Shown one piece after another: positions 29,402 through 45,798 of a stretch of DNA of 45,845 nt. The notes under the pieces are model-generated. The model worked only from the letters and a program-made list of their open reading frames with translations. It did no database searches and was not told the origin of the DNA. Numbering within the stretch: position 1 is the first letter of the stretch; every line of letters begins with the position of its first letter. The position numbers and the translations under genes were made by a program. Source of the DNA: a gamma proteobacterium HTCC2207 (GTDB lineage Bacteria > Pseudomonadota > Gammaproteobacteria > Pseudomonadales > Porticoccaceae); NCBI GenBank assembly GCA_000153445.1, contig CH672400.1, positions 265,911-311,755 on the forward strand, in the 5' to 3' direction.

Positions 29402-29403
29402 TA

Positions 29404-30536: not shown

Positions 30537-30584
30537 ACTGTTATGAATGTTAATGCAAACGAAATATTTTAGAGGACAGATGGC

Positions 30585-31283
30585 ATGGTGGTGGCAAAAG
30601 GTAAAGAGGGCGCGGCGAAAACGACAGCGGCAGCCAGCAAAAAGCGGCCGCAGCGCAATGAAAAGGGATGGCAGGCCGAGAAGAGTGCAATGACGCGTTC
30701 CGCAATTCTCGAGGCAACCATTCAATGCCTTCTCGAGTTGGGTTATGCCAATACCACTACCGCTTTGATTGCCAATTATGCCGGCGTCTCACGGGGTGCA
30801 ATGATGCACCACTTCCCCTCGCGTATTTCGGTTATGCGTGCGGTGATCGACTATCTCCATGTCTTGCGTCTGCAAGAGTACCGCGACCTGATGGTCGATA
30901 TTGATGATCCTCAAAGCAGTTTGACCGATAAAGCGATTCGCGAATCAGTTGAGGCTGCATGGCGTTATGTGAACCTTCCATCGTTTCTTGCCTACCAAGA
31001 GATGCTTGCTGCATCGCGCACTGATGGAGAGTTGCGACAGATTATTGAGCCGGTAGAAAAAGACTTTGAAAAGCAGTTTCTCGATACTGTAAAAGCGGTG
31101 TTCCCACACTGGCAAAATCTGGCGCGACTGGAAGGCGCTCACGATATGGTGCAGTTCTTGATGAAGGGCATGGCCCTGAGTCATATGTCAGTGCGCAAAA
31201 ATGCTCGCGCCAAGCGCGTGATGACCTACCTGACCGCTATTCTCCATGATATCTACAAAGAAGCGGATTTGATGGAAAAGTAA
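30585..31283 (+). CDS. TetR/AcrR family transcriptional regulator
   Basis: A 232-residue one-component repressor. The first 30 residues are a Lys/Ala-rich tail (VAKGKEGAAKTTAAASKKRP) that is unusual for the family and may bind DNA non-specifically. The HTH follows: RSAILEATIQCLLELGYANT then TTALIANYAGVSRGAMMHHF (about 38-77). The ligand domain is all-helical and ends with the stop at 31283. It lies between the kinase/ACAD11 operon and the SDR-Rieske cluster, on the same strand, so it may control either or both. The ligand is probably an acyl-CoA or pathway intermediate (inference). Confidence 0.92.
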   Translation: MVVAKGKEGAAKTTAAASKKRPQRNEKGWQAEKSAMTRSAILEATIQCLLELGYANTTTALIANYAGVSRGAMMHHFPSRISVMRAVIDYLHVLRLQEYRDLMVDIDDPQSSLTDKAIRESVEAAWRYVNLPSFLAYQEMLAASRTDGELRQIIEPVEKDFEKQFLDTVKAVFPHWQNLARLEGAHDMVQFLMKGMALSHMSVRKNARAKRVMTYLTAILHDIYKEADLMEK

Positions 31284-31601: not shown

Positions 31602-31619
31602 AAACATACATGTCTGTTT
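31602..31619. promoter_or_regulatory. Near-perfect 18-bp palindrome upstream of the catabolic cluster
   Basis: AAACATACATGTCTGTTT is self-complementary except for one base pair. It lies 110 bases before the first SDR start, and its size and position suit a TetR-type dimer site. Binding is not shown. Confidence 0.4.
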
Positions 31620-31728
31620 TGTAAAATGCAGTTGCGCTAATTTTCGAATTATCTGGCAGACTGACTAAGCAGCATAAAAACAATAATAATGAGAATAAAA
31701 CCAAAATAGCTGTAGCAAGGGGTTTCTG

Positions 31729-32529
31729 ATGGGGCGTTTTACTGGAAAAGTGGTCTCAATAGTCGGCGCTGCCGGTGAAGATAATATGGGGCAGGTTATG
31801 GCTCGCCGTTTCGCCGCTGAAGGGGCGAAAGTGGTTGTTTCCGGTCGTCATGAGGCTGCACTAAGCAAACTCGCCGAAGAGATTGATGGCGATTGGGTGC
31901 TCTGTGATTTCTCTAAAAAAGCCTCTATTAATACCATGATCGACTCGATTATCGATCGCCATGGCAAGCTCGATGTGGCGATTAATAGCACTGGCTGGGG
32001 TCTATTAGTGCCCTTAGAAGAAAACTCAGAGGAACAGCTTGATCAGATGCTTGATCTGCAGTTCAAAGGGCCGTTTGTGTGGCTGCAGAAACTGATTCAG
32101 GTTATGGCTGATACAGGCGGGTCGATTATTCAAATCTCCTCGGCCACTGCCAATATTATGCTCGATGACCATGCTGCCTATATGGGTACCAAGGCGGGCA
32201 CCGATCACCTGATCCGCTGTGTTGCCAATCAATACGGTCCAAAAGGCATTCGCGCCAATAGTATCTCCCCGGGTTTGACTCATACCCCGATGACTGCAGA
32301 ACCCCTAAAAAGCGCTGCACTGCTGGCAGAGTTTGAAAGCTGCTACCCCCTGGGTCGCATTGGCAGCAGTGACGATATTGCCGCTGCTGCACTATTTCTC
32401 GCCTCCGATGAATGCTTTATGACCGGCGAAAACTTGCAGGTCAACGGCGGTCTCTGTCTGCGCCGCAATCCACTGGGTACTGAGTTATTTGATGCCATGG
32501 TGGCGGCGGGTGAAATACCTGGGCAATAG
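31729..32529 (+). CDS. Atypical short-chain dehydrogenase/reductase
   Basis: A 266-residue SDR with the catalytic Tyr-x3-Lys in AAYMGTKAG. The cofactor loop is unusual: GAAGEDNMG (13-21) replaces the usual TGxxxGIG, and the NAG motif is INSTG. The C-terminus ends SDECFMTGENLQVNGGLCLRRN. These oddities are shared with the SDR at 41782, making the two close paralogues at either end of the cluster. It is probably an NAD(P)H-dependent oxidoreductase with unknown substrate. It is the first gene of the plus-strand cluster, preceded by AAGGGGTTTCTG as ribosome-binding site. Confidence 0.9.
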   Translation: MGRFTGKVVSIVGAAGEDNMGQVMARRFAAEGAKVVVSGRHEAALSKLAEEIDGDWVLCDFSKKASINTMIDSIIDRHGKLDVAINSTGWGLLVPLEENSEEQLDQMLDLQFKGPFVWLQKLIQVMADTGGSIIQISSATANIMLDDHAAYMGTKAGTDHLIRCVANQYGPKGIRANSISPGLTHTPMTAEPLKSAALLAEFESCYPLGRIGSSDDIAAAALFLASDECFMTGENLQVNGGLCLRRNPLGTELFDAMVAAGEIPGQ

Positions 32530-32622
32530 GCTGTGGCCAATAGCTTGTAACTAATAGCCTGTAACTAATAGCCTGTAACCAATAGCTTGTAATCAACAGC
32601 CTGAAACCAAAAGCAGCGAAAA
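32525..32622 (+). repeat. 14-bp tandem repeat starting in the SDR stop codon
   Basis: Seven steps of 14 bp start at 32525, 32539, 32553, 32567, 32581, 32595 and 32609. The best units are AATAGCCTGTAACT and AATAGCTTGTAACT; the outer ones are degenerate. The first unit contains the TAG stop of the preceding SDR gene (GGGCAATAG). The array fills nearly the whole gap to the next gene. Confidence 0.85.
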
Positions 32623-32641
32623 GAACAAGGATAGAAAGAAC

Positions 32642-33403
32642 ATGAAATTAGATCAAAAAGTGGTATTGATCACTGGTGCTGGCGGCGGTATTGGTCAGGC
32701 AGCGGTGCGCAAGTTTGTCAGTGAGGGCGCCAAAGTCATGCTCGCGGATATCAATACTGATATCACTCAGCCATTGGTCAATGAACTAGGTGCCTATCGC
32801 TGCGCCTGTGTCGCCGTTGACGTAGCTGAAGCGGATCAAGTTGAGAATATGGTGCGCACCACAGTCGACACCTTTGGCTCTATTGATGTCTTTGTGGCCA
32901 ACGCAGGCACCGAGGGCAAGATCGGTTCGATTATGGATACCGATGTCAGCAACCTAGATAAGGTATTGGCAGTCAATGTCAGAGGTGTATGGTTGGGGCT
33001 GCACTACGTCATGCCGGTGATGCGCGATGGCGGTGGTGGCAGCATTATTATCACGTCCTCTGGTGCAGGCGTGCAGGGCTCGCCCAATACCGCCGCCTAC
33101 AATACCAGCAAGCATGCGGTGATTGGTCTGATGCGCTGCGCGGCTCTGGAATCTGCGCAATTTGGTATCCGAGTCAATACGGTTAACCCAGGTGCTGTGG
33201 AAACCCGCATGATGGAATCCATTGAAGATGGCTTTGCTGAAGCGGGCGCCGGTGATTTTAGAGCTATGGTTGAGGCGGTGACACCTTTGGGTCGCTATGG
33301 CCAGCCGGAGGAAATCGCCAATATGATGGTTTTCTTAGGTAGTGATGACAGCAGTTACTGCACCGGCAGTGTGTATATGGTCGATGGTGGCAATGCCACC
33401 TAA
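32642..33403 (+). CDS. Classical short-chain dehydrogenase/reductase
   Basis: A 253-residue classical SDR. The cofactor motif TGAGGGIG is at about 11-18, ADI follows beta-strand 2 (Asp favours NAD over NADP), and VANAG is at about 87-91. The catalytic Ser is in ITSSG and Tyr-Lys in YNTSK. The C-terminus ends YCTGSVYMVDGGNAT. It probably oxidises a hydroxyl of the pathway intermediate; substrate unknown. It follows the atypical SDR on the same strand after the 14-bp array. Confidence 0.93.
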   Translation: MKLDQKVVLITGAGGGIGQAAVRKFVSEGAKVMLADINTDITQPLVNELGAYRCACVAVDVAEADQVENMVRTTVDTFGSIDVFVANAGTEGKIGSIMDTDVSNLDKVLAVNVRGVWLGLHYVMPVMRDGGGGSIIITSSGAGVQGSPNTAAYNTSKHAVIGLMRCAALESAQFGIRVNTVNPGAVETRMMESIEDGFAEAGAGDFRAMVEAVTPLGRYGQPEEIANMMVFLGSDDSSYCTGSVYMVDGGNAT

Positions 33404-33465
33404 GAGCAATTTTCAACGATTAATAATAAAAAAACAATAATCATAAAAATAATAAGAGCAGTGTT

Positions 33466-34215
33466 ATGACATTTAATTTTCACGATCAAGTCGTGTTAAT
33501 CACCGGCGCGGCCGGTGGTTTGGGTTATGCCTGCGCCCAAGCATTTGGAGCGGCTGGTGCTAAGTTGGTGATTACCGATATATCCAAGGAGCCATTGGAT
33601 AAGGCCGTTGAGGAGCTTGAACAGGCTGGCGCTGAGGTGCTGGGTCTGATTAATGACGTCAGCGATTCTGCGGATGTCAGTGCCATGATGAGTGCCATAG
33701 TGGCGCGTTTTGGTCGTCTCGATATTGCCGTCAACAATGCCGGTACAGCAACCCCATTACAGGAATTTCATGAAGTGGGTGAGGCGGAATTTGATCGGGT
33801 AATGGCGGTAAATTTAAAAGGTGTATGGCTGTGCATGCAGGCGGAGATCCGCCAAATGCTAGAGCAGGGCGGAGGGCGGATAGTCAATATGGCCTCGGCC
33901 ACCAGTCGCAACACCTACCCCAATGCCTCGCCCTATGTCACCAGCAAATTTGCGGTGGCCGGTCTGACCCGCACAGTAGCGGTGGAATATGCCGATCGCG
34001 ATATTCGGATTAACGCGATCTGCCCGGGAAATGTGGCGACTCCCCTAGTGGTGAGCCTGGTTGATGATCTATCGGTACTGGCAACAAAGCATGCGATCAA
34101 ACGTTTGGGTACGCCTGAAGAGGTGGCCAATGGGGTGATGTTTTTGGCCTCGGACCTTTCGTCTTTTAGTACCGGAAGTCTGCTCGAAGTGGATGGCGGT
34201 TGGAATGCGATTTAG
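33466..34215 (+). CDS. Classical short-chain dehydrogenase/reductase
   Basis: A 249-residue classical SDR with TGAAGGLG (about 13-20), ITDIS after strand 2, NNAGTA, a catalytic Ser in MASATS and YVTSK. The C-terminus reads FSTGSLLEVDGGWNAI. It is the third of four SDR genes in a row. The gap before it is A-rich and free of other signals except AAGAGCAGTG just before the ATG. Substrate unknown; an Asp after strand 2 suggests NAD. Confidence 0.93.
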   Translation: MTFNFHDQVVLITGAAGGLGYACAQAFGAAGAKLVITDISKEPLDKAVEELEQAGAEVLGLINDVSDSADVSAMMSAIVARFGRLDIAVNNAGTATPLQEFHEVGEAEFDRVMAVNLKGVWLCMQAEIRQMLEQGGGRIVNMASATSRNTYPNASPYVTSKFAVAGLTRTVAVEYADRDIRINAICPGNVATPLVVSLVDDLSVLATKHAIKRLGTPEEVANGVMFLASDLSSFSTGSLLEVDGGWNAI

Positions 34216-34310
34216 GGCCTGAAAAAAATAAACAGCAAAGAATAAAAAAATACAAAATTTAAAAAAACTAAATTTAAAGCACGTTAAAAAAATATTATAA
34301 GGAAAATTCC
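34216..34310. other. Very A-rich spacer between two SDR genes
   Basis: About 95 bases, over half adenine, with many A6-A7 runs. Only the last 12 bases (ATAAGGAAAATT) look like a ribosome-binding site. A similar A-rich spacer precedes the SDR at 33466. No hairpin is evident. Confidence 0.6.
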
Positions 34311-35072
34311 ATGTCTAGATTATTAAATAAAGTTGCGATTATTACCGGCGCTGCCTCTAACCCGGGCCTCGGCCATGCCACTGCTATGCGCTTTGCCCAA
34401 GAGGGTGCCAAACTGGTACTGACCGATATCGATATGGTTGGACTGGCTGCCGCCGAAAAAGAGATGGTCGCCCTAGGTGCTGAAGTACTGACTATGGAGC
34501 AAAATGTGGTCGATGAGCAGCGCTGGCAGGAAGTGATTGATGCCACCGTAGAGCGCTTTGGCGGTCTGGATATATTGGTTAACAATGCCGGTATTGCGGT
34601 TATGCGACCGATCAGTGAATACTCCACGGCAGACTACGATCTGCAGATGGATGTGAATATTCGCAGTGTCTTCCTCGGCTGTAAAAAAGCCCTGCCAGCA
34701 ATGATCGCCTCCGGTGGCGGCTCTATTGTCAATATGTCTTCTGTTGCTGCACTGCGCGGCATTCCCGGTGTCTCGGTATACGGTATTGCTAAAGCCGGTG
34801 TACAAATTTTCAGTAAGAGTATTGCCCTGGAACATGCTGCCGATGGTATTCGCTGTAACTCTCTGCACCCAGGCTTAATCGACACCAATATTCAAAATGA
34901 CTCCCGTCGCGATAATCCAGATGAGTTTGAAAAGCTTGGCGACACCGTGCCATTTGGTCGTATGGGCTATCCAGTGGAAGTGGCCAACTGTGTACTGTTT
35001 TTAGCCTCCGATGAATCCAGCTATGTCACTGGCGCTGAGCTGGTGGTTGATGGCGGTCTTATTTCAAAGTAA
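34311..35072 (+). CDS. Classical short-chain dehydrogenase/reductase
   Basis: A 253-residue SDR. The cofactor loop is slightly longer than usual (TGAASNPGLG, about 11-20). LTDID follows strand 2, then NNAGIAV, NMSSVAA with the catalytic Ser, and YGIAK with Tyr and Lys. It ends YVTGAELVVDGGLISK. It is the fourth SDR in the run, followed after 132 bases by the Rieske oxygenase. A cis-diol dehydrogenase or hydroxyacyl dehydrogenase role next to a ring-hydroxylating oxygenase is plausible but not shown. Confidence 0.93.
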   Translation: MSRLLNKVAIITGAASNPGLGHATAMRFAQEGAKLVLTDIDMVGLAAAEKEMVALGAEVLTMEQNVVDEQRWQEVIDATVERFGGLDILVNNAGIAVMRPISEYSTADYDLQMDVNIRSVFLGCKKALPAMIASGGGSIVNMSSVAALRGIPGVSVYGIAKAGVQIFSKSIALEHAADGIRCNSLHPGLIDTNIQNDSRRDNPDEFEKLGDTVPFGRMGYPVEVANCVLFLASDESSYVTGAELVVDGGLISK

Positions 35073-35204
35073 TCCCCGGGAATGCTGATTAGCTAATAGG
35101 TTTTGTTAAACAGCAAAACCTTTTAGCTGGTCAGCTTCTTTTTATTGCAGTCTATTCGACCTGTTTTTTATTAATCAGCACTGCCAATTATAGAGAGCCA
35201 TATT

Positions 35205-36560
35205 ATGGGCGCACCATCTGACACGTCCCGCTACGCCAAGGGTTTTGATATTCCTGTGCGCGGCGACACCATCACCGCGGACCGCTATATCTCCCAAGAG
35301 TTTATGGCGCTGGAGAACCAGCATCTGTGGCCAAAGGTTTGGCATCTGGGTGGCATGGTCGCTGAGTTAGAACAGGAAGGGGACTATGTGCGCCATAACC
35401 TGGGCACCGAATCGGTGATTATGATTCGTCAGGCCGACAGCAGCATCAAAGCTTTCTATAACTCCTGCCCCCACCGTGGAAATCGTCTAGTGCTGGGTGA
35501 TATTGGCGGCAGTGACCGCATTACCTGTGGCTACCATGGCTGGCAGTTTGCCCCCGACGGTGTGTTGGTCAATGTTCAAGACCCAGATGATTTTCCCGAT
35601 GGCAATCCCTGCGGCAAAGTGACGCTTAGCGAAGTGCGCTGTGAAACCTGGGGACCGTTTATCTTTTACTGCATGGACTCAGAGGTAAAACCCCTATTGG
35701 ACTGGCTGGCGCCATTGCCAGAACGGCTTAAAGATTACGGTCTCGATAACTGGATACGAGTGATGTATCTGTCGGCAGATGCCGATTTTAATTGGAAAAT
35801 TATCCGCGATAACTTTAATGAAAGTTATCACCTGCCCACTATTCACCCAGAACTGTCGACCTTTATTAATGATGGTCTGCCGGATACGTTATTTGAGATG
35901 TATGAAACCGGTCATAACGCTATGTGGATGAAAGGCCATCAGGCTACCACCCGCAATCCAGAGTTCCATACTGGCGACGTGCCCTCACCGCTAGATGACG
36001 TGGCTCGCGCTTGGGAGGTAGATCCAGCCGACTTTAACGGTCATACCGGTGATATCCGCGAGGCGATTATCGCCGCCAAACGCCGTCTTGGCCCGGAGCG
36101 CGGTTTTACCAACTATGAAAATATGAGCGATCAGCAGCTGGTGGATTATTTTCACTGCACATTGTTCCCCAATCTGACCATTACCATGTCACCGGAGCAG
36201 TGCCAGATACTGCGCACCGAACCCCATCCAACGGATCCGCAGAAATGTGTTTTCCATCACTGGGTGATAGCGCCGCCAGTTAAAGGTATGACCGAAGTGG
36301 AAACACCCATTGGGCCCATGCCATTGGAATGGGCGGAAAATCGTCACAGTGTTTATGGCGACGGTCAGTCGGTGGGCTATGTAGCGGATCAGGATTTAAG
36401 TATTGGCACCAGTCAGCAGCAGGGGCTTAATTCCCGCGGATTTAGTGGCTGCATACTGACTCATCAGGAGAAGCGCGTGCAGCGTTTCCACGAGTTGCTC
36501 AATGACTATGTGCACCCGGATGTGAGCACTGACATTATTAACTCTGATCAGCTGAGGTAA
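35205..36560 (+). CDS. Rieske non-haem iron oxygenase, alpha subunit
   Basis: A 451-residue oxygenase component. The Rieske [2Fe-2S] ligands are Cys88-x-His90 (SCPHRGNRL) and Cys108-x2-His111 (CGYHGWQF). The mononuclear iron site shows DNFNESYHLPTIHPEL, with His209 and His214 and the bridging Asp202/Asn205. Members hydroxylate or dihydroxylate unactivated carbons using O2 and reductase-supplied electrons. No ferredoxin, reductase or beta subunit is nearby, so it must use partners encoded elsewhere. It starts the second half of the cluster, and the VOC gene begins five bases after its stop. Confidence 0.94.
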   Translation: MGAPSDTSRYAKGFDIPVRGDTITADRYISQEFMALENQHLWPKVWHLGGMVAELEQEGDYVRHNLGTESVIMIRQADSSIKAFYNSCPHRGNRLVLGDIGGSDRITCGYHGWQFAPDGVLVNVQDPDDFPDGNPCGKVTLSEVRCETWGPFIFYCMDSEVKPLLDWLAPLPERLKDYGLDNWIRVMYLSADADFNWKIIRDNFNESYHLPTIHPELSTFINDGLPDTLFEMYETGHNAMWMKGHQATTRNPEFHTGDVPSPLDDVARAWEVDPADFNGHTGDIREAIIAAKRRLGPERGFTNYENMSDQQLVDYFHCTLFPNLTITMSPEQCQILRTEPHPTDPQKCVFHHWVIAPPVKGMTEVETPIGPMPLEWAENRHSVYGDGQSVGYVADQDLSIGTSQQQGLNSRGFSGCILTHQEKRVQRFHELLNDYVHPDVSTDIINSDQLR

Positions 36561-36565
36561 TCAAA

Positions 36566-37096
36566 ATGTTTAAAGCAATTGTTGTTGCCATGATCATGTC
36601 TGCTATTACCGCCGGTGCGTTTGCTGAAGACCTTTCACAAAAAGACAGTTCCCGGATACCGAATCCACTGGCTCTTATGCGTGCCGATCATATTATGATT
36701 TCCACCGCAGACTATCAGGGCACCGTTGACTGGTATCACAATATTCTCGGTTTTGAAGTGGTTCGCGAGTGGGACATCGAGGGCTACGCCGAGGTGGATG
36801 TGGGCTATATAGCCGCCAATGGTTTTATGATCGAAGTAGTAGGTACCCCGGAGGCATTTCAGGCTGAGGAAGTTGCCCCAGATGTATTCACTGCCATGTC
36901 CGACCGCGGCTATGTGCACATTGCCTTTCGCAGTGCCGATGTAGACGCCGTGGCGGCAGAGTTAGTCAGTCGTGGGGTCGAGCTTGAACTGCCGCCAACC
37001 GATTTTGATGCGGCAGGGGTTCGCCTGCTGTTTATCCGCGATAACAATGGCAACCTAATTGAGATAGTGACGCCGCTCTCCAGCAAAGAGGATTAA
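36566..37096 (+). CDS. Secreted VOC (glyoxalase/dioxygenase-fold) protein
   Basis: A 176-residue protein. Residues 1-20 (MFKAIVVAMIMSAITAGAFA) are a clear signal peptide. A single VOC domain follows from about residue 38: RADHIMISTADY with a probable metal-ligand His42, a second His in YVHIAFRS, and a C-terminal NLIEIVTP with the ligand Glu. This pattern suits a lyase, isomerase or dioxygenase that needs a metal. Export is unusual for the family. It lies between the Rieske gene (5 bases) and the propeller lipoprotein (2 bases). Confidence 0.88.
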   Translation: MFKAIVVAMIMSAITAGAFAEDLSQKDSSRIPNPLALMRADHIMISTADYQGTVDWYHNILGFEVVREWDIEGYAEVDVGYIAANGFMIEVVGTPEAFQAEEVAPDVFTAMSDRGYVHIAFRSADVDAVAAELVSRGVELELPPTDFDAAGVRLLFIRDNNGNLIEIVTPLSSKED

Positions 37097-37098
37097 GT

Positions 37099-38847
37099 AT
37101 GCAACCAAGGTCTAGTTTGAGTATGTTTATTCGAATAAGTTTATTGGTATTGCTAGCGGCTGCGGGTTGCACTGAGCGTGATAACCGATCACCTGATATT
37201 GCTCTCACGGGGGTAGTGTCTTCACCCCAAGAACAGCTTATGGAAGGGGTTGTGGTGATTCTTCGGGGAGTCGATAAATCCCTGTTGACCGCAGTGACCT
37301 CTGATGCCACCGGTCAGTTTAGTCTTAGGCGCGAGCGTCTTAATGCCGGCACCTATGAGGTCACAGTGCGAGCCGCTGGCTATGAATTATCCAGCGCACA
37401 GCAGGTGGTGATTACTCAAGATCGTCCATCATCAATCGAGCTGTCTCTGCAGGCGGTTACCGACCCACTGCGTCTAGCCTCTCATTTGACCTCACTGGAC
37501 TGGGTGAAAAGTTTCCCCGGAAGCAAGGCAGAAAAAGATCTGCTGGTGCGCAATATGGTCAACTGTGGTTTTTGCCACAGCCTCGAGCGCATTGCTCGCT
37601 CCGGCTATAACGCAGAGCAATTTACTCAGGTGATTCAGCGCATGCACACCTATGAGACGGACCATGCCTCCGCCGATCGTATCCAGATAGTGCGCCACCC
37701 GCTGCCCCTAAAAGATTTTATTTGGTACGGACGCAAAGCAACTGATATAGCAGAGTATTTAGCCACAGTTAATCTCAGTCAGGGGCAGTCGACCTGGGAT
37801 TACCCGTTAAAAACCTTGCCGCGCCCTTCAGGTGAAGGCACCAATGCCACAGTCACGGTGTACCCGATTCCCCGGCAGCCCAGCGTGATCCATGATCTGG
37901 ATGTAGATTCAAAAGGCAATGTTTGGTACGGCAATACCGGGTGGGATTTTATTGGCAAACTCGATCCCCGCAGTGGCGAATTTTCCGAATGGCCGGCACC
38001 GAACTTTTTACCCGAGCCGGAAGAGGGCCTCAGCCGTATTGTCGGTGTTCAGGATATACAGGTGGATGGCACCGATACCGTCTGGGTAGGTATAGGCGGC
38101 AATAAGCATGCGGCGTTCTCTCCTGAGACTGAAACCTGGCAGACATTTGATTTGCCGGTGATCTGGAAAAACCCCTTTTTAGGGCCAGTGAGAGCCGGTG
38201 AAAAGGGACTCTGGGCAACAGGTATCACCTCCATACCCGAGGGAGGTATTCGCCATGAGCACGCCTTCCGCTTGGATATCGAAAGCGGTGAAGTGGGTGA
38301 GGGCATAATGCTCTTTGATGACAAACCATTCCCCACAGATCCCGATCGAGTCGGCCAATTAAATTACTGCTACATGATGGATCAGGATGCCGCGGGGAAT
38401 TTCCTCTGCACCGCACCTGAAGCGTCCTCTATTGCCCGCTCTGATGGAGAAGGCAATGTTCGCCTAGTGCCGACACCGACGCCCAATGCTTATCCGCGCC
38501 GAGGTTATAGAGATAACAATAATGGTTTTTGGTTTACCGAATTCTTTGCTGACAATGTGGCGGTGATCAATCTCGATAATGATGAGATTACCGAGTATCC
38601 GCTGCAGCCGCGACATATCTCTCCCTACTACGCACGCCCAGATCGCAATGGCAAAATCTGGATATCCAGCACCGGTTCCGACCGCCTGTTGCGGCTGGAT
38701 CCAGAGACTGGAAAGGTCGTCAAATATCTTATGCCGGTGGAATACGATGCACGCAAAGTCGTGGTCGATAATTCCGCCGATCGTATTACCGTCTGGCTGC
38801 CGAATAAAAATCAGGGGCAGTTGATTCGGATTGAAGTAGCCGAGTAA
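37099..38847 (+). CDS. Lipoprotein with carboxypeptidase-regulatory domain, CxxCH haem motif and Vgb-like propeller
   Basis: A 582-residue lipoprotein. The lipobox LAAAGC places the lipidated Cys at 24. A carboxypeptidase-regulatory-like Ig fold covers about 35-120 (GVVSSPQEQLMEGVVVILRG). A single haem c attachment site, CGFCH, is at 156-160 in a short helical region. The rest (about 230-580) is a seven-bladed-type propeller similar to virginiamycin B lyase/SMP-30 proteins (VDSKGNVWYGNTGWDFIGKL, NNGFWFTEFFADNVAVINL). It should sit in the periplasm or on the outer membrane. Substrate and electron partner are unknown. Confidence 0.87.
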   Translation: MQPRSSLSMFIRISLLVLLAAAGCTERDNRSPDIALTGVVSSPQEQLMEGVVVILRGVDKSLLTAVTSDATGQFSLRRERLNAGTYEVTVRAAGYELSSAQQVVITQDRPSSIELSLQAVTDPLRLASHLTSLDWVKSFPGSKAEKDLLVRNMVNCGFCHSLERIARSGYNAEQFTQVIQRMHTYETDHASADRIQIVRHPLPLKDFIWYGRKATDIAEYLATVNLSQGQSTWDYPLKTLPRPSGEGTNATVTVYPIPRQPSVIHDLDVDSKGNVWYGNTGWDFIGKLDPRSGEFSEWPAPNFLPEPEEGLSRIVGVQDIQVDGTDTVWVGIGGNKHAAFSPETETWQTFDLPVIWKNPFLGPVRAGEKGLWATGITSIPEGGIRHEHAFRLDIESGEVGEGIMLFDDKPFPTDPDRVGQLNYCYMMDQDAAGNFLCTAPEASSIARSDGEGNVRLVPTPTPNAYPRRGYRDNNNGFWFTEFFADNVAVINLDNDEITEYPLQPRHISPYYARPDRNGKIWISSTGSDRLLRLDPETGKVVKYLMPVEYDARKVVVDNSADRITVWLPNKNQGQLIRIEVAE

Positions 38848-38872
38848 ATTTTTATAAATAGGAAAAACAATA

Positions 38873-40723
38873 ATGCATAAACTTATTTATGTTTCGTTAC
38901 TGGCTGCGTTGGCGTTGCCAGCAAACGCGGCAGAGCCCTCGCTCTCGGATCAAAAGTTGCTCTACTCAGCACCGGTGCGAGACAGTATGACAAACCTCTA
39001 TTGGGGTGATTTGCACCTGCACTCTCAACTCTCAGCCGATGCCTATATTTTACAGACGCGACTGACCAAAGATCAGGCGTTTAAGTTTGCCCGTGGTGAA
39101 ACGGTTCAGGCGGATAATGGCATGCCGGCCAAATTACGTCGCCCATTAGATTTTTTAGCGGTGACAGATCATGCGGAATATCTGGGTATTTATGCTCAGA
39201 TGGCCCTCGATGATCCCCGTTTAGATGAATGGAAAATGGGTGCAGAATGGAAGGAGTTATTGCGTCAGGGGGATATGATGAGCTTAGCTCTGGCATTCTC
39301 AGACGCGATTCAGACCAGTGAACCAGAGTATCTGACGCCCGACAGCCTGCGCAGCTCTATTTGGCAGGAGGCGTCTGCCGTTGCTGATAAATACAATGAG
39401 CCAGGGTTATTTACTGCCTTTGTGGGTTACGAATGGACCTCCATGATTACCGGCGACAACCTTCACCGGGTGGTGATCTATAAAGACGGTGCCGAGACCG
39501 CATCTCAGATGACGCCTTTCTCGGCACAGCACAGCAATGACCCGGAAGATTTATGGGACGCCTTAGCGGACTATGAAAAGCAAACCGGGGGTGAAGTACT
39601 TGCCATTGCCCACAATGGTAATGTCAGTAATGGCCGCATGTTTTCGCCGAACCGGGAAAACGGACTGCCCCTAGATGCGTCCTATGCCCGCAAACGTGCA
39701 CGTTGGGAACCGGTCTATGAGACCACTCAGGTAAAAGGCGATGGTGAGGCACATCCTTACCTGTCTCCAGATGACGAGTTTGCCGATTTTGAAACCTGGG
39801 ATCAGGGCAATATCACTTTAGGCACGGACAAAGAACCAGAAATGTTGCAGTACGAATATACCCGCTCGGCCCTCCGCGAAGGTCTCCGCCACGAGGCTAA
39901 CTTGGGTACCAACCCCTTTAAGTTTGGCATTATCGGTAGCACCGATTCTCACACGGGCATGGCCACCACCAATGAGGATAACTTCTTTGGTAAGTTTGCC
40001 CATGATGAGCCCTCAGTGGACCGCACCGAAAAACGTATGGCGGATCAGCTACAGAAAATCTGGCGGCTAGTATCCTCCGGTCTGGCAGCGGTCTGGTCTG
40101 AGGAAAATACTCGCGAGTCGATCTTTGATGCGATTAAGCGTCGCGAAGTCTATGCCACCTCGGGCACCCGCATTAAGCTGCGCTTTTTTGGTGGCTGGGA
40201 ATATGCACAGGCAGATGTTCTGAGCGCTGATTACGCCAGTATCGGCTATGCAAAGGGCGTTCCTATGGGGGGCGATTTAACCCGCGGTCCCGACGCTAAA
40301 GCCCCACGCTTTATGGTCGCCGCCACCAGAGATCCAGATGGTGCCAACTTGGATCGTGTACAGATTATTAAAGGCTGGCTCAATGCCAGTGGCGAAACGG
40401 CGGAGCAGATATTTGATGTGGCCCTCTCCGATGGCCGCAAGAGGAGCTGGTTAACCGGCGAGATTCCCGCGGTGGGCAATACTGTTGACAGTGAAAATGT
40501 CACCTACAGCAACAGCATAGGTGCCGCCGAATTAACCGCAGTTTGGACTGATCCCGAGTTCGATCCAGACCAGCGTGCATTCTACTATGCCAGAGTGATT
40601 CAGATTCCAACCCCGCGCTGGACTGCCTATGACGAAAAATATTTTGGTGCAGTTATAGATCCCCGAGCACCCAAAACCATTCAAGATCGCGCCTACTCAT
40701 CACCTATTTGGTACACCCCATGA
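38873..40723 (+). CDS. Secreted DUF3604 protein, PHP-like metal site
   Basis: A 616-residue exported protein. Residues 1-20 (MHKLIYVSLLAALALPANAA) form a signal peptide. The DUF3604 hallmark YWGDLHLHSQLSADAY gives His48 and His50, followed by FLAVTDHAEYLG (Asp99, His100) and GIIGSTDSHTG further on, a PHP-type metal-binding set. It ends at the outer part of the domain (FYYARVIQIPTPRW). The family has no settled function; a metal-dependent hydrolase is likely. Its stop overlaps the next start (ATGA). Confidence 0.9.
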   Translation: MHKLIYVSLLAALALPANAAEPSLSDQKLLYSAPVRDSMTNLYWGDLHLHSQLSADAYILQTRLTKDQAFKFARGETVQADNGMPAKLRRPLDFLAVTDHAEYLGIYAQMALDDPRLDEWKMGAEWKELLRQGDMMSLALAFSDAIQTSEPEYLTPDSLRSSIWQEASAVADKYNEPGLFTAFVGYEWTSMITGDNLHRVVIYKDGAETASQMTPFSAQHSNDPEDLWDALADYEKQTGGEVLAIAHNGNVSNGRMFSPNRENGLPLDASYARKRARWEPVYETTQVKGDGEAHPYLSPDDEFADFETWDQGNITLGTDKEPEMLQYEYTRSALREGLRHEANLGTNPFKFGIIGSTDSHTGMATTNEDNFFGKFAHDEPSVDRTEKRMADQLQKIWRLVSSGLAAVWSEENTRESIFDAIKRREVYATSGTRIKLRFFGGWEYAQADVLSADYASIGYAKGVPMGGDLTRGPDAKAPRFMVAATRDPDGANLDRVQIIKGWLNASGETAEQIFDVALSDGRKRSWLTGEIPAVGNTVDSENVTYSNSIGAAELTAVWTDPEFDPDQRAFYYARVIQIPTPRWTAYDEKYFGAVIDPRAPKTIQDRAYSSPIWYTP

Positions 40724-41736
40724 CAGCACCAGTAATCAATAAAAAGTGGACGCTAAAATCCCGTCCTGAAACCACCGTTAGCGCAGAGCATTTTAACTTT
40801 GAGAATGAGACCATCCGCGACCTAGTGGCTGGCGAGTTTCTGGTAAAGAATCATTATCTCTCTTTTGAACCGGCTCAGCGTGGCTGGTTAAACGATGTGC
40901 GCAGCTATGTGCCACCGGTAGCCATTGGCGAAGTGATGCGCTCTATGGCAGTGGGCGAAGTTATTGCCAGCAACCATAGCGACTATCAGATTGGCGATAG
41001 AGTGCAGGGCGGTTTTGGCTGGCAAGAATATGCTATCAGCGATGGTACCGGACTCTTTCCAGTATCAAAAATTCCTGAGGGTATGCCCATCGCTTACCCA
41101 CTGCATATCTATGGTCTCACCGGCTTAACGGCTTACTTTGGCTTGCTCGATATAGGCAAACCCAAAGCCGGCGATACAGTGGTGATCTCAGGGGCGGCTG
41201 GGGCTACCGGCTCCACCGTGGGTCAGATTGCCAAGTTAATGGGTTGTCGAGTTATCGGTATTGCCGGTGGTCCAGCCAAGTGCCAGTGGCTAATCGATGA
41301 GCTGGGCTATGACGCCGTGATTGACTACAAATCAGAATCCGTCGATGCGCGCATGAAAGAGCTGTGTAAAAACAGCATCAATATCTACTTCGATAATGTC
41401 GGTGGCGAAATTCTCGACTCGGCGCTGGTCAATCTAGCCAACCATGCGCGAGTGGTTCTCTGTGGCGGTATTTCCAGTGGCTACCAAACTAAAGCGCTAC
41501 CGCCGGGGCCGAAAAATTATATGCAGTTAGTGATTCGCCGCTCTCATATGGAAGGCTTTATTGTGCTCGATCATGTGGAGCGTTATCCCGCTGCGATAGA
41601 GCAGTTAAGTCAGTGGGTTGATGAGGGCAAGATCCTCGTCAAGGAACATATTCTAGAGGGTATAGAAGAATGTCCTGCTGGTCTGGCGGGTCTTTTCGCC
41701 GGTCACAATTTTGGCAAGCAGCTGGTTAAAATTTAA
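40720..41736 (+). CDS. MDR-family NADP-dependent oxidoreductase (CurA/PTGR-like)
   Basis: A 338-residue medium-chain reductase without catalytic zinc ligands. The N-terminal barrel has RPETTVSAEHFNFENETI and the LSFEPAQRGWL segment of the CurA/leukotriene B4 dehydrogenase group. The Rossmann domain has SGAAGATGSTVGQIAKLMG and GIAGGPAKCQWL. Members reduce the double bond of 2-enones or 2-alkenals with NADPH. The ATG at 40720 overlaps the DUF3604 stop by four bases (ATGA) and is preferred to an upstream TTG at 40708. Confidence 0.93.
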   Translation: MTAPVINKKWTLKSRPETTVSAEHFNFENETIRDLVAGEFLVKNHYLSFEPAQRGWLNDVRSYVPPVAIGEVMRSMAVGEVIASNHSDYQIGDRVQGGFGWQEYAISDGTGLFPVSKIPEGMPIAYPLHIYGLTGLTAYFGLLDIGKPKAGDTVVISGAAGATGSTVGQIAKLMGCRVIGIAGGPAKCQWLIDELGYDAVIDYKSESVDARMKELCKNSINIYFDNVGGEILDSALVNLANHARVVLCGGISSGYQTKALPPGPKNYMQLVIRRSHMEGFIVLDHVERYPAAIEQLSQWVDEGKILVKEHILEGIEECPAGLAGLFAGHNFGKQLVKI

Positions 41737-41781
41737 TAAAAAATAAGAAAACTATTTATTACGGACTTAGAGGGCACAATC

Positions 41782-42549
41782 ATGGCCGGTAGATTAGAAG
41801 GGAAAGTCATTGTTATTTTGGGCGCATCTGACGAGCGCAGTATGGGTGCGGCCACCGCACATCGCTGCGCTGCCGAGGGCGCAAAACTTGTATTGGCGGC
41901 CCGCAGACTGGATAAGGTCCAGGCCATCGCCGACAGTATTGGCGCTGTAGCCGTGGGTTGCGATATTACCGACGAAGCACAGCTTGCAGCTTTGGCAGAC
42001 ACCGCTGTCGCCCATTACGGCAAACTCGATGGTGCGATTAATTTTGCCGGTATTGAAACTTCATCGTCGATTGCCGATATCAGCCGCGAAGTATTACAGC
42101 AGAACTGCGATGTTCACTTAATCGGAACCACGCTGTTTATCAAGCATATGACTGCACGCATGACTGATGGTGGCTCAGTGGTAACCACCTCCTCACAGAC
42201 TGCTCTGTTAGCGCCTCCGGGACTGGCAGCTTATGCTGGCACCAAGAGTGGGGCAGATCATATAGTGCGCATAGCCGCAGTTGAGTACGGTGGACAGAAT
42301 ATCCGTGTTAACTCTCTGTCGCCCGGTTTTACGCCCAGTGCTATGACCGAGGGTTTCCTGGCTATGCCTGCCATCGAGCAAGCGTTTATCAATGAGATTC
42401 CACTGGGTAAGTTACCGAGCACCGATGATATGGCGAATGCGGCCCTGTGGCTGTTATCCGATGAGTGTTTTATGACCGGTAGGCTGTTGGATATTTCTGG
42501 AGGCCAAACTCTGCGCCGTATTCCTACGGCTACAGAGATGGGTTTTTGA
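41782..42549 (+). CDS. Atypical short-chain dehydrogenase/reductase, paralogue of the first SDR
   Basis: A 255-residue SDR with YAGTK as the Tyr-x3-Lys motif. The cofactor loop is GASDERSMG (14-22), again lacking the TGxxxGIG pattern, and NFAG replaces NNAG. The C-terminal SDECFMTG ... GGQTLRRIP matches the SDR at 31729 almost word for word. The two paralogues bracket the plus-strand cluster and may act on related intermediates. It is the last gene on the plus strand. It is preceded by GAGGGCACAATC as ribosome-binding region. Confidence 0.9.
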   Translation: MAGRLEGKVIVILGASDERSMGAATAHRCAAEGAKLVLAARRLDKVQAIADSIGAVAVGCDITDEAQLAALADTAVAHYGKLDGAINFAGIETSSSIADISREVLQQNCDVHLIGTTLFIKHMTARMTDGGSVVTTSSQTALLAPPGLAAYAGTKSGADHIVRIAAVEYGGQNIRVNSLSPGFTPSAMTEGFLAMPAIEQAFINEIPLGKLPSTDDMANAALWLLSDECFMTGRLLDISGGQTLRRIPTATEMGF

Positions 42550-42607
42550 TTTAGGCTTTTTAGTAAAAAAGAAAAGCTAACTTATTTAAGTAAAGTTAAG
42601 CCCTCAG

Positions 42608-42633
42608 AAAGCCGCTGCCATCAGCGGCTTTTC
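42608..42633 (+). terminator. Terminator of the plus-strand cluster, overlapping the convergent crotonase stop
   Basis: AAAGCCGCTG and CAGCGGCTTT form a perfect 10-bp stem around CCAT, followed by TCTTT. It ends the cluster about 60 bases after the last SDR. The right arm lies inside the last codons and stop of the crotonase on the other strand (Lys-Ser-Arg-stop). Confidence 0.85.
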
Positions 42634-43451
42634 TTTGCCACGGCTTTTCCCGCGCTGTAGTCATAAACCTCGCCATTACTCAGCGCGCCCAAGCCTTTAA
42701 GAAAGTCACCGCTGTCCATAGCTTCAGTTTCCGCTTCCAACTCTTTGGCTAGTCCCAGATCGAGAGAGCCTTCCCAAGCAGCTCCTAAGCACTCCTTAGT
42801 CCATTGCACCGAAGCAGGCGAGCAGTGACGCAAACGAGTTAGTACGTTGCTTAGATGTCCATCTAAGAGCTCAGGAGTGGCAAATGAGCCTGTCACCAGT
42901 CCAAACTCCGCAGCCTGAATGCCACTGATCGATTCTCCCAGCAAAAGCATCTCCTGAGCCCGTCTAAAGGGCATTAGTCGAGCCGCTAACTGAGTGCCAC
43001 CCCAGGCGGCAACAAAGCCCAGAGTCACTTCAGGAAAGCTAAAGCGTGCGCCATCAAGACAGTAGAGAAAATCGCTGCGCAGTAGCAGCTCAAGGCCGCC
43101 ACCCAAGGCTCCGCCGCGGGCTATACCAATTACCGGCATAGGCAATGCGGCAATCTGCCTGCCCAGTTGATGGCCCATTTTAACCAGCCGCTGAAAGTCT
43201 TCTCTTCCCAGGTCTTCGAGTCGAGGCTGCAGCTCCGTGACAGCCGCTGCACCGGCGTGAAAGCCACGCCCGCCAGCGTCTATGACTACTGCGCGTATCT
43301 CAGTTTGATCGTTAATGCTTTGGAGCGCTTCGCCCATGGCCTTGAGCATGGCCACAGACATACCAAAATTATCTTGAGGATTGTTTTTTGTTAGCCACAG
43401 AATGCCGTCCTCGATATGACGATTAAGTACTGTAGTCTCAGTCTGTTGCAT
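42621..43451 (-). CDS. Enoyl-CoA hydratase (crotonase family)
   Basis: A 276-residue crotonase with both catalytic glutamates of a hydratase: Glu121 in GGALGGGLELLL and Glu141 in FSFPEVTLG. The oxyanion-hole segment is FHAGAAAV (64-71), a variation on the usual hydrophobic motif. It should hydrate 2-enoyl-CoA, giving 3-hydroxyacyl-CoA. It is on the minus strand, converging with the catabolic cluster. The gene begins after the TonB receptor terminator, so it probably has its own promoter in 43452-43514. Confidence 0.9.
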   Translation of the reverse strand: MQQTETTVLNRHIEDGILWLTKNNPQDNFGMSVAMLKAMGEALQSINDQTEIRAVVIDAGGRGFHAGAAAVTELQPRLEDLGREDFQRLVKMGHQLGRQIAALPMPVIGIARGGALGGGLELLLRSDFLYCLDGARFSFPEVTLGFVAAWGGTQLAARLMPFRRAQEMLLLGESISGIQAAEFGLVTGSFATPELLDGHLSNVLTRLRHCSPASVQWTKECLGAAWEGSLDLGLAKELEAETEAMDSGDFLKGLGALSNGEVYDYSAGKAVAKKSR

Positions 43452-43514
43452 GGTTGCTTACCTATTTTTTGTAAAGGTTTTTTTTACTAATATTGCTAGA
43501 AAGACGAATATTAA

Positions 43515-43547
43515 AAAAGGCGGCTGAACTGAGTTCAACCGCCTTTT
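43515..43547 (-). terminator. Rho-independent terminator after the TonB-dependent receptor
   Basis: AAAAGGCGGCTGAAC and GTTCAACCGCCTTTT form a 15-base stem with one mismatch around TGA. Read on the minus strand it ends in six T. It lies about 30 bases past the receptor stop and separates the receptor from the crotonase transcript. Confidence 0.92.
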
Positions 43548-43575
43548 AGTTACTGCTTCTTAAGAGTTCAGATAC

Positions 43576-45798
43576 TTAGAACTCATATCCTAACGTGACA
43601 CCAAATTGACGACCTGGAGCAAGCTCTGCCCAAGAGAAGCTACCTGCGTCATAGCGACGGTTGATACGGTTATCAGCTTCAAAGATATCTGTGCCGTAGA
43701 CCATTAACTTCAATGTTCCATTGCCCATGTCCTTGAGGTAAGTCGCTGAAAGATCAACAGTCTCGAAGCTTTCAATAACAACTTCTGGACCTGTTACTGG
43801 GTCATAAGTGGCCCAAGCAGCCTGAGTGTAAACTTCATCTTTGTGGCTAAAGCTACCAGTAACTGTCAGTGAGCCGCCAGAGATTTCAGTGGTGTACTCA
43901 GCAACCAAACTAGCGGTCAACTCAGGTGCATACATCAGGTACGCTTTGTCTGAGATATCGACACCGTCGTAGTCATACTTGTCGTAGCCGCCGTCAAGGG
44001 TACCTATAGCAGCACGCAGAGTCAGGTTTTCAGTTGGCATCAATGCAGCTTCAATCTCAATACCGTCCATGCTTACTTGACCAGCATTTCGAGTGAATGA
44101 ACAGGTTACGCCATTTTCTGCTGTACCTTTACCACAGACTGGGTCATCACCAGGAACAATAACTTGAACCTGCTTGTCAGTGTAATCAGTGCTGAAGTAA
44201 GTAACGTTCAACTGAGAGTTTTCAGTTGGGTTGCTACGCATACCGATTTCAAAGCTTTCAACCTCCTCTGACTGGTATGGCAACAGCTCTGCTTCATTTG
44301 AACCACGGTTAAAGAATCCACCGCTGCGGAAGCCCGTTGCAAAAGAGGTATACAGCATGCCCTTTTCGAACTCTCTCTGCAGAACTACACGGTAGCTTGT
44401 GTTGTCGTCTGAGAAAGTTGGATTACCAACGTTGATCGCTGCATCAAGATTTTCTGCAATTCGATTTGCGAAATCCAGAATCGCCCAAGAGCGAGAGTAG
44501 AGCTCTTTATCTTCTTCTGTGTATCGTGCGCCTGCAGTAATCGACCAATCATCGTTTAGGTCATAGGTCATTTCACCAAAGAACGCTGATGCTTCTAGGC
44601 TGTGGTTTGCGGTAAAGTTCTGAATAGGACCTGAAGTAATGTAAGAGTCAGCTTCCATATAGTAGGCACCAAGAACAAAGTTCAGGGGACCGTCTAGATC
44701 GGAAATATACTGTATCTCATGTGACTCTTGCTCAAAGGTCTGCTCTCTAACAACCGGGAACATAACGCCATTGGTTCCCCAAGAGCCCAGTGTTGCAAGC
44801 TCGTCATACTCCATGGTGCCCATGATGTATTTGATCTGGTAGCCATCGCCTTCGTGCGTCAGTTTAAAGGTAACATTCTCACCTTCCAACGTCGCAGTAA
44901 GAGGGTTTAGCTGAACGGAGTTCTTGTAACCACTGGCTTTTGAAATATCTGAGGAAACCGTAGCGCAATTCTGTGCAGGAGTGCCCGCACAAAGAGCACC
45001 GGCTGCTGTGGTTGTGTTGATGATGTCTACCGCAGTTGTATCGTGATCATAATCATCGTAGGTCAAAAGAGCTGAGGTATTTTCTGTGAAGTTGTACTTT
45101 ACGGAGATCGAGGCAGTCTGGCTGTCGCGATTGTCAGGTCTGTTGTCATTGGTAACGTTGTAAAGAAAAGACTTCGACTGAATATCTTTAACAGCAATCT
45201 TAATGCCGCCATTTTCGCCCAAAGGCATATTCATAATACCCTTAAGGTCGGTCATGCTCTCATCGCCGAAAGTCGCTTCTACCTTACCGCCCCACTCGCC
45301 GGTTGGTTCAGTTCTTTGAACGTTAATCACACCACCAATGGTGTTACGTCCAAAAAGCGTACCCTGTGGGCCACGAAGTACTTCAACTGACTCGACATCA
45401 AAGAAGTCAAAGATTGCGCCAGAGTTGCTCGCCATAAAGACGCCGTCAATTGCGACACCGATAGTTGATTCAATCGACTTTTCGATATCGTCGTAGCTCA
45501 GGCCTCGAATAGAGGGGCTAAGAGAGTGCGAACCCTGCGAAGTCTGGTGCAATTCAACGTTAGGAACTAATTTGGCAACGTCTACAACACTTCTAATCGA
45601 GCCTCTTTCAAGCTGGCCTGGTGTAATAGCAGTAACGGCTACAGGAACATCCTGAATAGATTCTTGACGCTTTCGAGCAGTAACAATCACTTCCTCAAGA
45701 ACGGTCGCGCCAACGGCTACGTTAGCGTACAGCGGTACCATACATACAGAAATCAGGGCTGGAAGCACCTGCTTCTTAAAGTTTTTCTGATAATTCAT
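43576..45798 (-). CDS. TonB-dependent outer-membrane receptor
   Basis: A 740-residue receptor. Residues 1-30 look like a long signal peptide (VLPALISVCMVPLYANVAVGA). The TonB-box region LEEVIVTARKR follows at about 34-44. The plug domain has VPNVELHQTSQGS, IRGLSYDD and EVLRGPQGTLFGRNTIGGVIN. The remainder is a 22-strand barrel ending GRQFGVTLGYEF with a terminal Phe. This is the long-receptor class that imports large or lipophilic nutrients; the ligand is unknown. It faces the catabolic cluster and is a candidate transporter for its substrate. Confidence 0.95.
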   Translation of the reverse strand: MNYQKNFKKQVLPALISVCMVPLYANVAVGATVLEEVIVTARKRQESIQDVPVAVTAITPGQLERGSIRSVVDVAKLVPNVELHQTSQGSHSLSPSIRGLSYDDIEKSIESTIGVAIDGVFMASNSGAIFDFFDVESVEVLRGPQGTLFGRNTIGGVINVQRTEPTGEWGGKVEATFGDESMTDLKGIMNMPLGENGGIKIAVKDIQSKSFLYNVTNDNRPDNRDSQTASISVKYNFTENTSALLTYDDYDHDTTAVDIINTTTAAGALCAGTPAQNCATVSSDISKASGYKNSVQLNPLTATLEGENVTFKLTHEGDGYQIKYIMGTMEYDELATLGSWGTNGVMFPVVREQTFEQESHEIQYISDLDGPLNFVLGAYYMEADSYITSGPIQNFTANHSLEASAFFGEMTYDLNDDWSITAGARYTEEDKELYSRSWAILDFANRIAENLDAAINVGNPTFSDDNTSYRVVLQREFEKGMLYTSFATGFRSGGFFNRGSNEAELLPYQSEEVESFEIGMRSNPTENSQLNVTYFSTDYTDKQVQVIVPGDDPVCGKGTAENGVTCSFTRNAGQVSMDGIEIEAALMPTENLTLRAAIGTLDGGYDKYDYDGVDISDKAYLMYAPELTASLVAEYTTEISGGSLTVTGSFSHKDEVYTQAAWATYDPVTGPEVVIESFETVDLSATYLKDMGNGTLKLMVYGTDIFEADNRINRRYDAGSFSWAELAPGRQFGVTLGYEF

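Follow-up and report, generated by a model that had tools for sequence, protein, structure and literature searches.

Gene content of the locus

The right-hand part of the window, by which we mean the whole 45,845-nucleotide stretch of the genome of the SAR92 gammaproteobacterium HTCC2207 analysed here (contig CH672400.1, positions 265,911 to 311,755), holds the left two fifths of a genomic island of about 48 kb that very probably serves the catabolism of a hydrophobic cyclic compound. Members of SAR92 are frequent in sunlit ocean waters near algal blooms, and to gain about 45 catabolic genes in a single insertion would mean a considerable shift of niche; the island could also be counted as a marker in metagenomes. 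An earlier annotation of this DNA (the original prediction) had delimited a candidate catabolic island at 31729..45798, with nine plus-strand genes and two convergent ones. Gene calls and Pfam and NCBIfam scans recovered every gene that it had named, namely five short-chain dehydrogenases (SDRs), a Rieske oxygenase, a VOC protein, a propeller, a DUF3604 protein, a medium-chain dehydrogenase/reductase (MDR), a crotonase and a TonB receptor, except that we count ten plus-strand genes. The set is real but its limits were drawn too narrowly: the interval, about 14 kb, is the middle part of an island more than three times larger.

The island's first metabolic gene, crot1 (27225..28109, on the plus strand like all genes up to sdr5), encodes an enoyl-CoA hydratase of the PRK08260 group (NF006109, 434 bits, above the cut-off of 320). 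It is followed by a gene for an acyl-CoA dehydrogenase (ACAD; 28172..29401; Pfam Acyl-CoA_dh_1/M/N), 86-97% identical to the copies in the named relatives that reach that gene, by one for an APH/ACAD10-11-like phosphotransferase (29404..30423; PF01636, 177 bits), which is confined to part of the islands and lacking from several loci, and by one for a TetR-family regulator conserved in the island (30585..31283; PF00440). These four genes (27225-31283) are part of the same insertion as those that follow. At its left edge, between lysS and crot1, lies an open reading frame (ORF) for a HigA-like helix-turn-helix antitoxin (26428..26721, plus strand; PF01381, 28.7 bits); by eye, the toxin frame partnering it looks interrupted (window 26101-26721), and the relative G309 has a longer partner frame.

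Four SDR genes come next, sdr1 (31729..32529), sdr2 (32642..33403), sdr3 (33466..34215) and sdr4 (34311..35072), whose products score 197, 217, 223 and 234 bits against PF13561. They precede rieske1 (35205..36560; Ring_hydroxyl_A, 141 bits), which encodes a single-subunit Rieske oxygenase. Eight of its residues (Cys88/His90/Cys108/His111, Glu206, His209, His214 and Asp397) are invariant in 19 aligned sequences and are likely the catalytic ones, their roles being those that we presume from general knowledge of the Rieske family. The protein scores 110.8 bits against the model of the glycine betaine monooxygenase GbcA, below the NCBIfam cut-off of 670. Its predicted fold (pLDDT 75) comes closest to those of CntA and further Rieske alpha subunits, with identities of 15-22% among the best 50 matches; since so many alpha subunits match at this level, the model does not indicate a substrate.

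Three genes for exported proteins follow. The first encodes a VOC protein (36566..37096; PF00903; signal peptide by eye) in which His42/Glu90/His118/Glu166, which we take to be the usual metal-site pattern of the VOC family, are invariant across 12 aligned sequences. The second encodes a Vgb-like propeller lipoprotein with a CarboxypepD_reg domain (37099..38847; PF24684, PF13620), carrying one CxxCH haem motif and a lipobox, both recognised by eye. The third encodes a DUF3604 protein (38873..40723; PF12228, 838 bits; signal peptide by eye), 74-95% identical among relatives, which scores 24.6 bits against the CehA/McbA metallohydrolase model, below the NCBIfam cut-off of 80; with a mean pLDDT of 37, its AlphaFold model permits no statement on the fold. 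The product of mdr1 (40708..41736) is an NADPH-dependent double-bond (enone) reductase of the CurA group (NF058644); at 361.5 bits it lies below the NCBIfam CurA cut-off of 440, which makes it a member of the curcumin reductase group and not the same enzyme by that rule. Its best PDB match is 4b7c, and its further kin include reductases of the pulegone and zingerone-synthase type. After sdr5 (41782..42549; PF13561, 190 bits), two genes lie on the minus strand: crot2, for a crotonase (42621..43451; PF00378), and the gene for the TonB-dependent receptor (43576..45798; PF00593, PF07715), which is the final gene ahead of the contig end.

Extent of the island

The window's last base, 45845, is also the last of contig C1, which stops 47 bp past the receptor gene and inside the island. 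The remaining part, about 29 kb, lies on contig C3 of the same genome (bases 3-28637, one masked stretch excepted) and comprises two ACADs, a cytochrome P450 of the CYP101 family, two further Rieske oxygenases with ferredoxins and a reductase, a thiolase with a ChsH2-type OB protein, and a 2-oxoacid dehydrogenase complex. The acyl-CoA ligase of the relatives was not found on C3; its place is at the gap that separates the two contigs.

In close relatives, the island spans about 48 kb from just past lysS to a cytochrome c/COX15 block; in G309 this distance is 47.8 kb, with 45 genes named (several by eye). Four relatives, G309, G285, G310 and G330, have largely the same genes in the same order as far as read, with APH, crot2 and the propeller variable. 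Named records with the island include those of SAR92 H921 and MOLA455. Past the receptor come a CoA ligase, two ACADs (paired, of the PimC/PimD type), two SDRs, the P450, a ThuA protein and a second Rieske oxygenase, and then small ABM, SRPBCC and NTF2/SnoaL proteins, two more MDRs, an alpha/beta hydrolase, another SDR and a GFA protein. The reading of G330 stops at the second of these additional MDRs; SRPBCC was not called in G310, and a different ORF replaces one NTF2 gene in G310 and G330. G309 and G285 were read further. Their next genes encode a fourth MDR, a Rieske ferredoxin, a third Rieske oxygenase and the thiolase with its ChsH2-type OB protein, and the right end is formed by E3/E2/E1 of the 2-oxoacid dehydrogenase, a 2Fe-2S ferredoxin and a ferredoxin reductase. 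Several of these right-hand genes were domain-scanned as their G285 copies, the others mostly as the copies of the window's own genome.

One insertion, inherited together

A lysS match was found in seven of eight congeners that lack the island's markers. In three of these seven (G290, G312 and G304), the cytochrome c/COX15 block lies within about 120 bp after lysS, and because the two are directly joined there, the whole set is apparently one insertion. In the other four (G298, G291, G297 and G299), a different ACAD pair occupies the lysS junction and the cytochrome c ORF was not called, which makes the junction a variable spot. Three states are seen downstream of lysS, therefore: empty, the 48-kb island, or a small two-ACAD block (L171, L172 and L176 as against L173, L174, L175 and L177). 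By eye, no integrase or transposase was noticed among ORFs of at least 90 amino acids, part of which were also scanned against Pfam, and no repeats were evident at the ends in G309, at the right end in the window's genome or at the three empty sites. That a part of the SAR92 clade gained this genomic island as one block is practically certain.

Three markers far apart on the island were followed through 112 genomes of the family. At E <= 1e-60, rieske1 has matches in 27 (16 at >=82% identity, 11 at 38-45%) and the P450 in 20 (16 at >=78%, the next at 51%); at E <= 1e-80, the thiolase has matches in 24 (16 at >=89%, the next at 81%). With identity cuts chosen after these tables were seen, all three occur together in 15 of the 17 genomes that carry any of them, the two exceptions, G324 and G313, being 80-82% complete; the hypergeometric value of the overlap is 1.6e-16, in which the relatedness of the genomes is still contained. 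This co-inheritance led us to reject a chance assembly of common SDR genes and, with the single insertion and the empty sites in congeners, bears out the original prediction that the genes form an island. At least six of twelve genes of the set lie in one locus in 13 of 15 loci of the SAR92/Porticoccaceae group (13 different assemblies), and the two loci that fall short, L041 and L103, are truncated at contig ends. The set can do without the haem propeller: of the 14 loci that cover its place, 4 have it. The gene crot2 is present in 3 of 10 loci that reach the receptor. Class-wide, rieske1 is rare: at E <= 1e-40, three of 274 genomes have a match, one being the window's own and the remaining two showing identities of no more than 28-37%. 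More distant copies of rieske1, the P450 and the thiolase occur in G277 and G278, which belong to other genera, and a second, distant version of the cluster (Rieske 38%, thiolase 60-61%) is found on contig C8 of G310, contig C40 of G317 and contig C1 of G303, three genomes that also carry the main island.

Related clusters in Sphingomonadales

A scan of species genomes for rieske1, of which the best 80 of 106 relatives were kept, also turned up copies in Sphingomonadales and in one unplaced alphaproteobacterial metagenome-assembled genome, with identities of 63-82%; 13 of the 80 (L104-L116) are distant (26-41%) and belong to other groups. We compared the island with 51 sphingomonad regions, made up of 47 of the 52 sphingomonad-side loci of the scan (five shorter than 12 kb were dropped) and four plasmid regions, at E <= 1e-10; all hold rieske1 by selection and many are cut at 10 kb. 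Matches were found for NTF2b in 45 regions, rieske3 in 43, rieske2 in 36, ThuA in 33 (median 62% identity), the CoA ligase in 28, mdr3 in 24, sdr1 in 22 (median 58%), sdr6 in 19, CYP101 in 16, the OB protein in 14, the thiolase in 13 (59%) and acadL in 9; crot1, the first ACAD and E1 were each matched in a single region. At least three of nine chosen families, rieske1 counted, are matched at >=45% identity in 36 of the 51. The set is thus not peculiar to this genome.

Annotated plasmid copies carry the same kit in part. The closest known clusters are those on pNL2 of Novosphingobium aromaticivorans DSM 12444 (L117), in N. capsulatum (L118), in Sphingobium TomTYG65 (L119) and in N. humi (L180). 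Common to the SAR92 island and these multi-Rieske/SDR clusters are rieske1-3, ThuA, the thiolase with its OB protein, the CoA ligase, ACADs, SDRs, CurA-type MDRs, NTF2 proteins, a TonB receptor and a TetR regulator, with CYP101 in some; the TomTYG65 cluster additionally has E1/E2 of the 2-oxoacid complex, as the SAR92 island does. The sphingomonad clusters differ in gene order and in that the crot1-ACAD-APH operon is nearly absent from them. No match for VOC, DUF3604, the propeller or APH is listed across the 51 regions; to judge from these comparisons, the exported VOC and DUF3604 proteins were added in SAR92. Of the linked periplasmic and cytoplasmic steps proposed originally, the exported proteins are indeed present, but the periplasmic part is an accessory module. 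A VOC gene beside rieske1 on pNL2 was considered as a homologue of the window's VOC gene and found unconvincing (best E 0.014).

In a quick LG+G4 tree of Rieske proteins (117 rows, long branches flagged; the duplicates L001, L002, L008-L022, L034 and L122-L133 and hits below 38% identity or 350 query positions left out), the SAR92 copies form one clade (14 rows, support 99). This clade is grouped with Sphingomonadales UBA6174 (support 91, not starred) within a set that is otherwise alphaproteobacterial. Such a grouping suggests, on a simple reading of the tree, that the cluster was transferred between classes; any direction given to that transfer would have to be inferred. The island is in this respect a variant of a cluster type seen in sphingomonads and probably spread horizontally. 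No functional account of the sphingomonad clusters as pathways, or of the SAR92 cluster, was found in the open-licence literature, which is weak evidence of novelty.

The CYP101 P450

The P450 of the island belongs to the CYP101 family: its G285 copy, to which that of the window's genome is 84% identical, scores 377 bits with CYP101J2, 359 with P450cam and 262 with CYP101C1, the next family being P450cin with 162. On pNL2, a CYP101-like P450 (SARO_RS18540; L117 16746-17942) lies two genes upstream of the NTF2 neighbour of the rieske1 homologue (SARO_RS18555), in a cluster of several single-subunit Rieske oxygenases and NTF2 proteins; the thiolase gene there is SARO_RS18655. It is not CYP101C1 (269 bits), D1 or D2, the last of which we take to come from N. 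aromaticivorans too, and would be CYP101B1 by elimination, provided that the strain has no fifth CYP101. Its residue 85 is a histidine, presumably the known active-site histidine of CYP101B1. The family is described mostly from N. aromaticivorans and Sphingobium yanoikuyae, B1, C1 and D1 being tied to the former, and CYP101B1 is stated to lack a solved structure (PMC9655578). According to parts of PMC9655578 and Table 6 of PMC8197338, CYP101B1 takes ionones and damascone, and CYP101C1 ionones. We found no synteny of the island with a characterised degradation cluster, which would have refuted the original prediction, though the enzyme that would be CYP101B1 in a related cluster is biochemically characterised.

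The position of P450cam Tyr96 lies in a loop that has been proposed to separate ionone from camphor users (PMC9655578, in part). This position is His in all 13 SAR92 genomes examined (of 16 carriers) and in all 15 sphingomonad copies above 40% identity, the pNL2 enzyme included; it is not His in the copy of L058 (36%), and it is Tyr in CYP101D1, D2, D5 and J2. The positions of D1 Trp89/Met100 are Ile/Leu in the P450 of the window's genome and Val/Leu in the pNL2 enzyme. The SAR92 P450 thus shares its family with the norisoprenoid hydroxylases CYP101B1 and CYP101C1 and its His with the putative CYP101B1 of pNL2.

Substrate and proposed pathway

The best overall explanation, to which we give a probability of about 0.45, is that the island of about 48 kb takes up and breaks down a hydrophobic cyclic compound, of which a monocyclic gem-dimethyl (nor)isoprenoid is the likeliest kind. 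The odds that the substrate falls in the (nor)isoprenoid class are about even, and an ionone-type substrate, for example carotenoid fragments, is a tentative choice that stays somewhat below even odds. A terpenoid-like compound, which the original prediction had named among the possible substrates, is indeed the best-supported class, because of the CYP101 P450 linked to the island. The pathway, which we infer step by step from gene content, would begin with import through the TonB receptor, the exported VOC and DUF3604 proteins perhaps serving to release or prepare the compound. The P450 and the three Rieske oxygenases, with the ferredoxins and reductase of the island, would hydroxylate ring and side chain, SDRs would turn the alcohols into ketones and CurA-type reductases would saturate enones; kinship with reductases of the pulegone/zingerone type makes the latter suited to an alpha,beta-unsaturated side-chain ketone. 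Ring opening, for which no candidate enzyme was recognised, would come next. The opened acid would be activated by the acyl-CoA ligase and its chain shortened by the two-subunit ACAD, the crotonases and the thiolase/ChsH2-type OB pair, and the 2-oxoacid dehydrogenase complex would channel the branched product into central metabolism. E1 and E2 of this complex score below the pyruvate dehydrogenase cut-offs, which is what a gem-dimethyl skeleton might require. On the N. humi plasmid (L180, 1-4820), the cluster adjoins mmsB, a methylmalonate-semialdehyde dehydrogenase gene, two genes of the enoyl-CoA hydratase type and an ACAD gene; such a valine/isobutyrate set would fit a gem-dimethyl substrate, as a hint. 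In the window itself, genes for methylmalonyl-CoA mutase, propionyl-CoA carboxylase subunits and a MeaB-like GTPase, recognised by eye, lie upstream of the island (13137-20423) and constitute a ready propionyl-CoA route.

Several points weigh against a norisoprenoid substrate. (i), the P450 evidence is not strict: CYP101D5 keeps the Tyr, turned outward, and yet uses ionone, hydroxylating flavonoids too (PMC9655578, in part), so that the His is no strict mark, and CYP101B1 is described as also taking phenylcyclohexane and p-cymene (PMC8197338, in part). The P450 of the window's genome is only 45% identical to that of pNL2, so the two may differ in substrate, and the name CYP101B1 of the latter rests on elimination. 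CYP101 was found in just 16 of the 51 sphingomonad regions, 14 of these copies being above 40% identity, though with many regions cut at 10 kb its lack there is not a clean absence. (ii), enzymes that one might expect are missing: we recognised neither a Baeyer-Villiger enzyme nor a ring-cleaving hydrolase among the island's genes, hits of the flavin-monooxygenase (FMO) type lying elsewhere in the genome, and no carotenoid cleavage oxygenase was found in the window's genome, so ionones would need to be supplied by others and taken up ready-made. (iii), the sphingomonad clusters show no match to the exported proteins and hardly any to the crot1-ACAD-APH operon, so SAR92 may use a different compound.

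To our knowledge, CYP101B1 is known only as a laboratory catalyst. If ionones are indeed the substrate, a sink for carotenoid breakdown products would be identified and CYP101B1 would be given a physiological role. The widest version of this proposal, a complete undescribed norisoprenoid pathway that moved as a unit between Alpha- and Gammaproteobacteria, with a natural role for CYP101B1 and an exported VOC/DUF3604 front end gained in SAR92 for algal apocarotenoid conjugates, we consider unlikely.

Alternative explanations

Degradation of a steroid or sterol (or of a triterpenoid) could also account for the island: the ligase, the two-subunit ACAD and the thiolase with its ChsH2-like OB protein would shorten a side chain by retro-aldol cleavage, and the Rieske enzymes would act on the rings as KshA does. 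ChsE1-E2 and ChsH2-Ltp2 are enzymes of steroid side-chain degradation, and the island has possible counterparts of them in its paired ACADs of the PimC/PimD type and in the thiolase adjoining a protein that matches the ChsH2 Pfam models, although these models are broad. The TomTYG65 plasmid region shares sdr1 (62%), sdr5 (59%), the thiolase (61%), the OB protein, the ACADs and E1/E2 with the island, and a related cluster is present in strain ES2-1, which we take to be an estradiol degrader. Bile salts and steroidal glycoalkaloids are degraded by some sphingomonads (PMC8540908; PMC10653915; both in part), and the name TomTYG65 may point to a tomato-root isolate like those of the latter study. 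Still, the genome has no dioxygenase at the level of HsaC: its best score is 83 bits against a cut-off of 450, but as none of 14 control genomes attained that cut-off either, the search had no positive control. In its G285 copy, the thiolase scores higher with the benzoylsuccinyl-CoA thiolase of the Bbs type (151 bits) than with 6ok1, a lipid-transfer enzyme (99 bits), and the CYP101 enzymes of the literature take camphor, ionones or flavonoids (parts of PMC9655578 and PMC8197338). Judged by HsaC, the thiolase and the P450, we find a steroid improbable. A narrower version, catabolism of tomatine or of steroidal alkaloids as the principal function, was rejected: TomTYG65 shares about 12 families with the island, but its nearest Rieske protein is just 50% identical to rieske1, and the main text of PMC10653915 has no occurrence of monooxygenase, dioxygenase, acyl-CoA or TonB.

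An aromatic or O-/N-methylated compound, resembling lignin or flavonoids, seems to us about equally improbable. The Rieske enzymes would then be demethylases or ring hydroxylases, and the GFA protein encoded on the island would handle formaldehyde; sequence and fold matches of rieske1 do include CntA, stachydrine demethylase and aromatic dioxygenases, and CYP101D5 offers a precedent for flavonoids within the P450 family (PMC9655578, in part). However, among the island's genes we recognised none for an aromatic ring-cleavage dioxygenase; the catechol 2,3-dioxygenase of the genome lies on contig C5 beside a reductase of the phenol-hydroxylase type (by eye), and eight SDRs with four enone reductases point to alicyclic ketone chemistry. 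Separately, contig C5 (L179, L178) carries a second, diverged extradiol enzyme beside a hydrolase and a protein resembling glutathione S-transferases.

A bicyclic monoterpenoid comparable to camphor or cineole, which would be hydroxylated by a P450cam-type enzyme, oxidised by SDRs and cleaved as a diketone by a crotonase, is a rather more doubtful substrate. CYP101J2 is the cineole enzyme, and with P450cam it provides the best P450 matches; the island also shares a ferredoxin with reductase and the SDR steps with the camphor and cineole pathways, and two crotonases are encoded on the window's island. Against this stand the replacement by His of the camphor-contacting Tyr96, the alteration of the D1 Trp89/Met100 places, the lack of crot2 from 7 of the 10 islands that reach the receptor, and the many Rieske enzymes and SDRs of the island; moreover, no lactone monooxygenase of the camphor-lactone type was recognised on it. 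Camphor itself was rejected as the substrate for the loss of Tyr96. A patchwork, in which unrelated small catabolic operons gathered at a shared insertion hot spot with no common substrate, is highly improbable, for although the lysS junction is variable, with that different ACAD pair in four other congeners, and although propeller, crot2 and APH are dispensable, the three distant markers are co-inherited in all but the two incomplete genomes among the carriers, gene order is largely kept in the four islands and the same families recur together, in another order, in sphingomonads.

A candidate operator

Ahead of sdr1, by about 110 bp, lies a 19-bp imperfect palindrome, AAACATACATGTCTGTTTT (31602..31620, plus strand), which is a candidate TetR operator for the sdr1 operon. 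The palindrome is recognisable in all five aligned genomes, in which the flanking sequence has changed, and the window holds it in a single place at <=3 mismatches (mean expected 0.18). As it occurs once in the window, the operator does not show that the genes are co-regulated. The G309 island has, by eye, an AAACA..TGTTT element of loose similarity upstream of the ferredoxin reductase gene at its right end.

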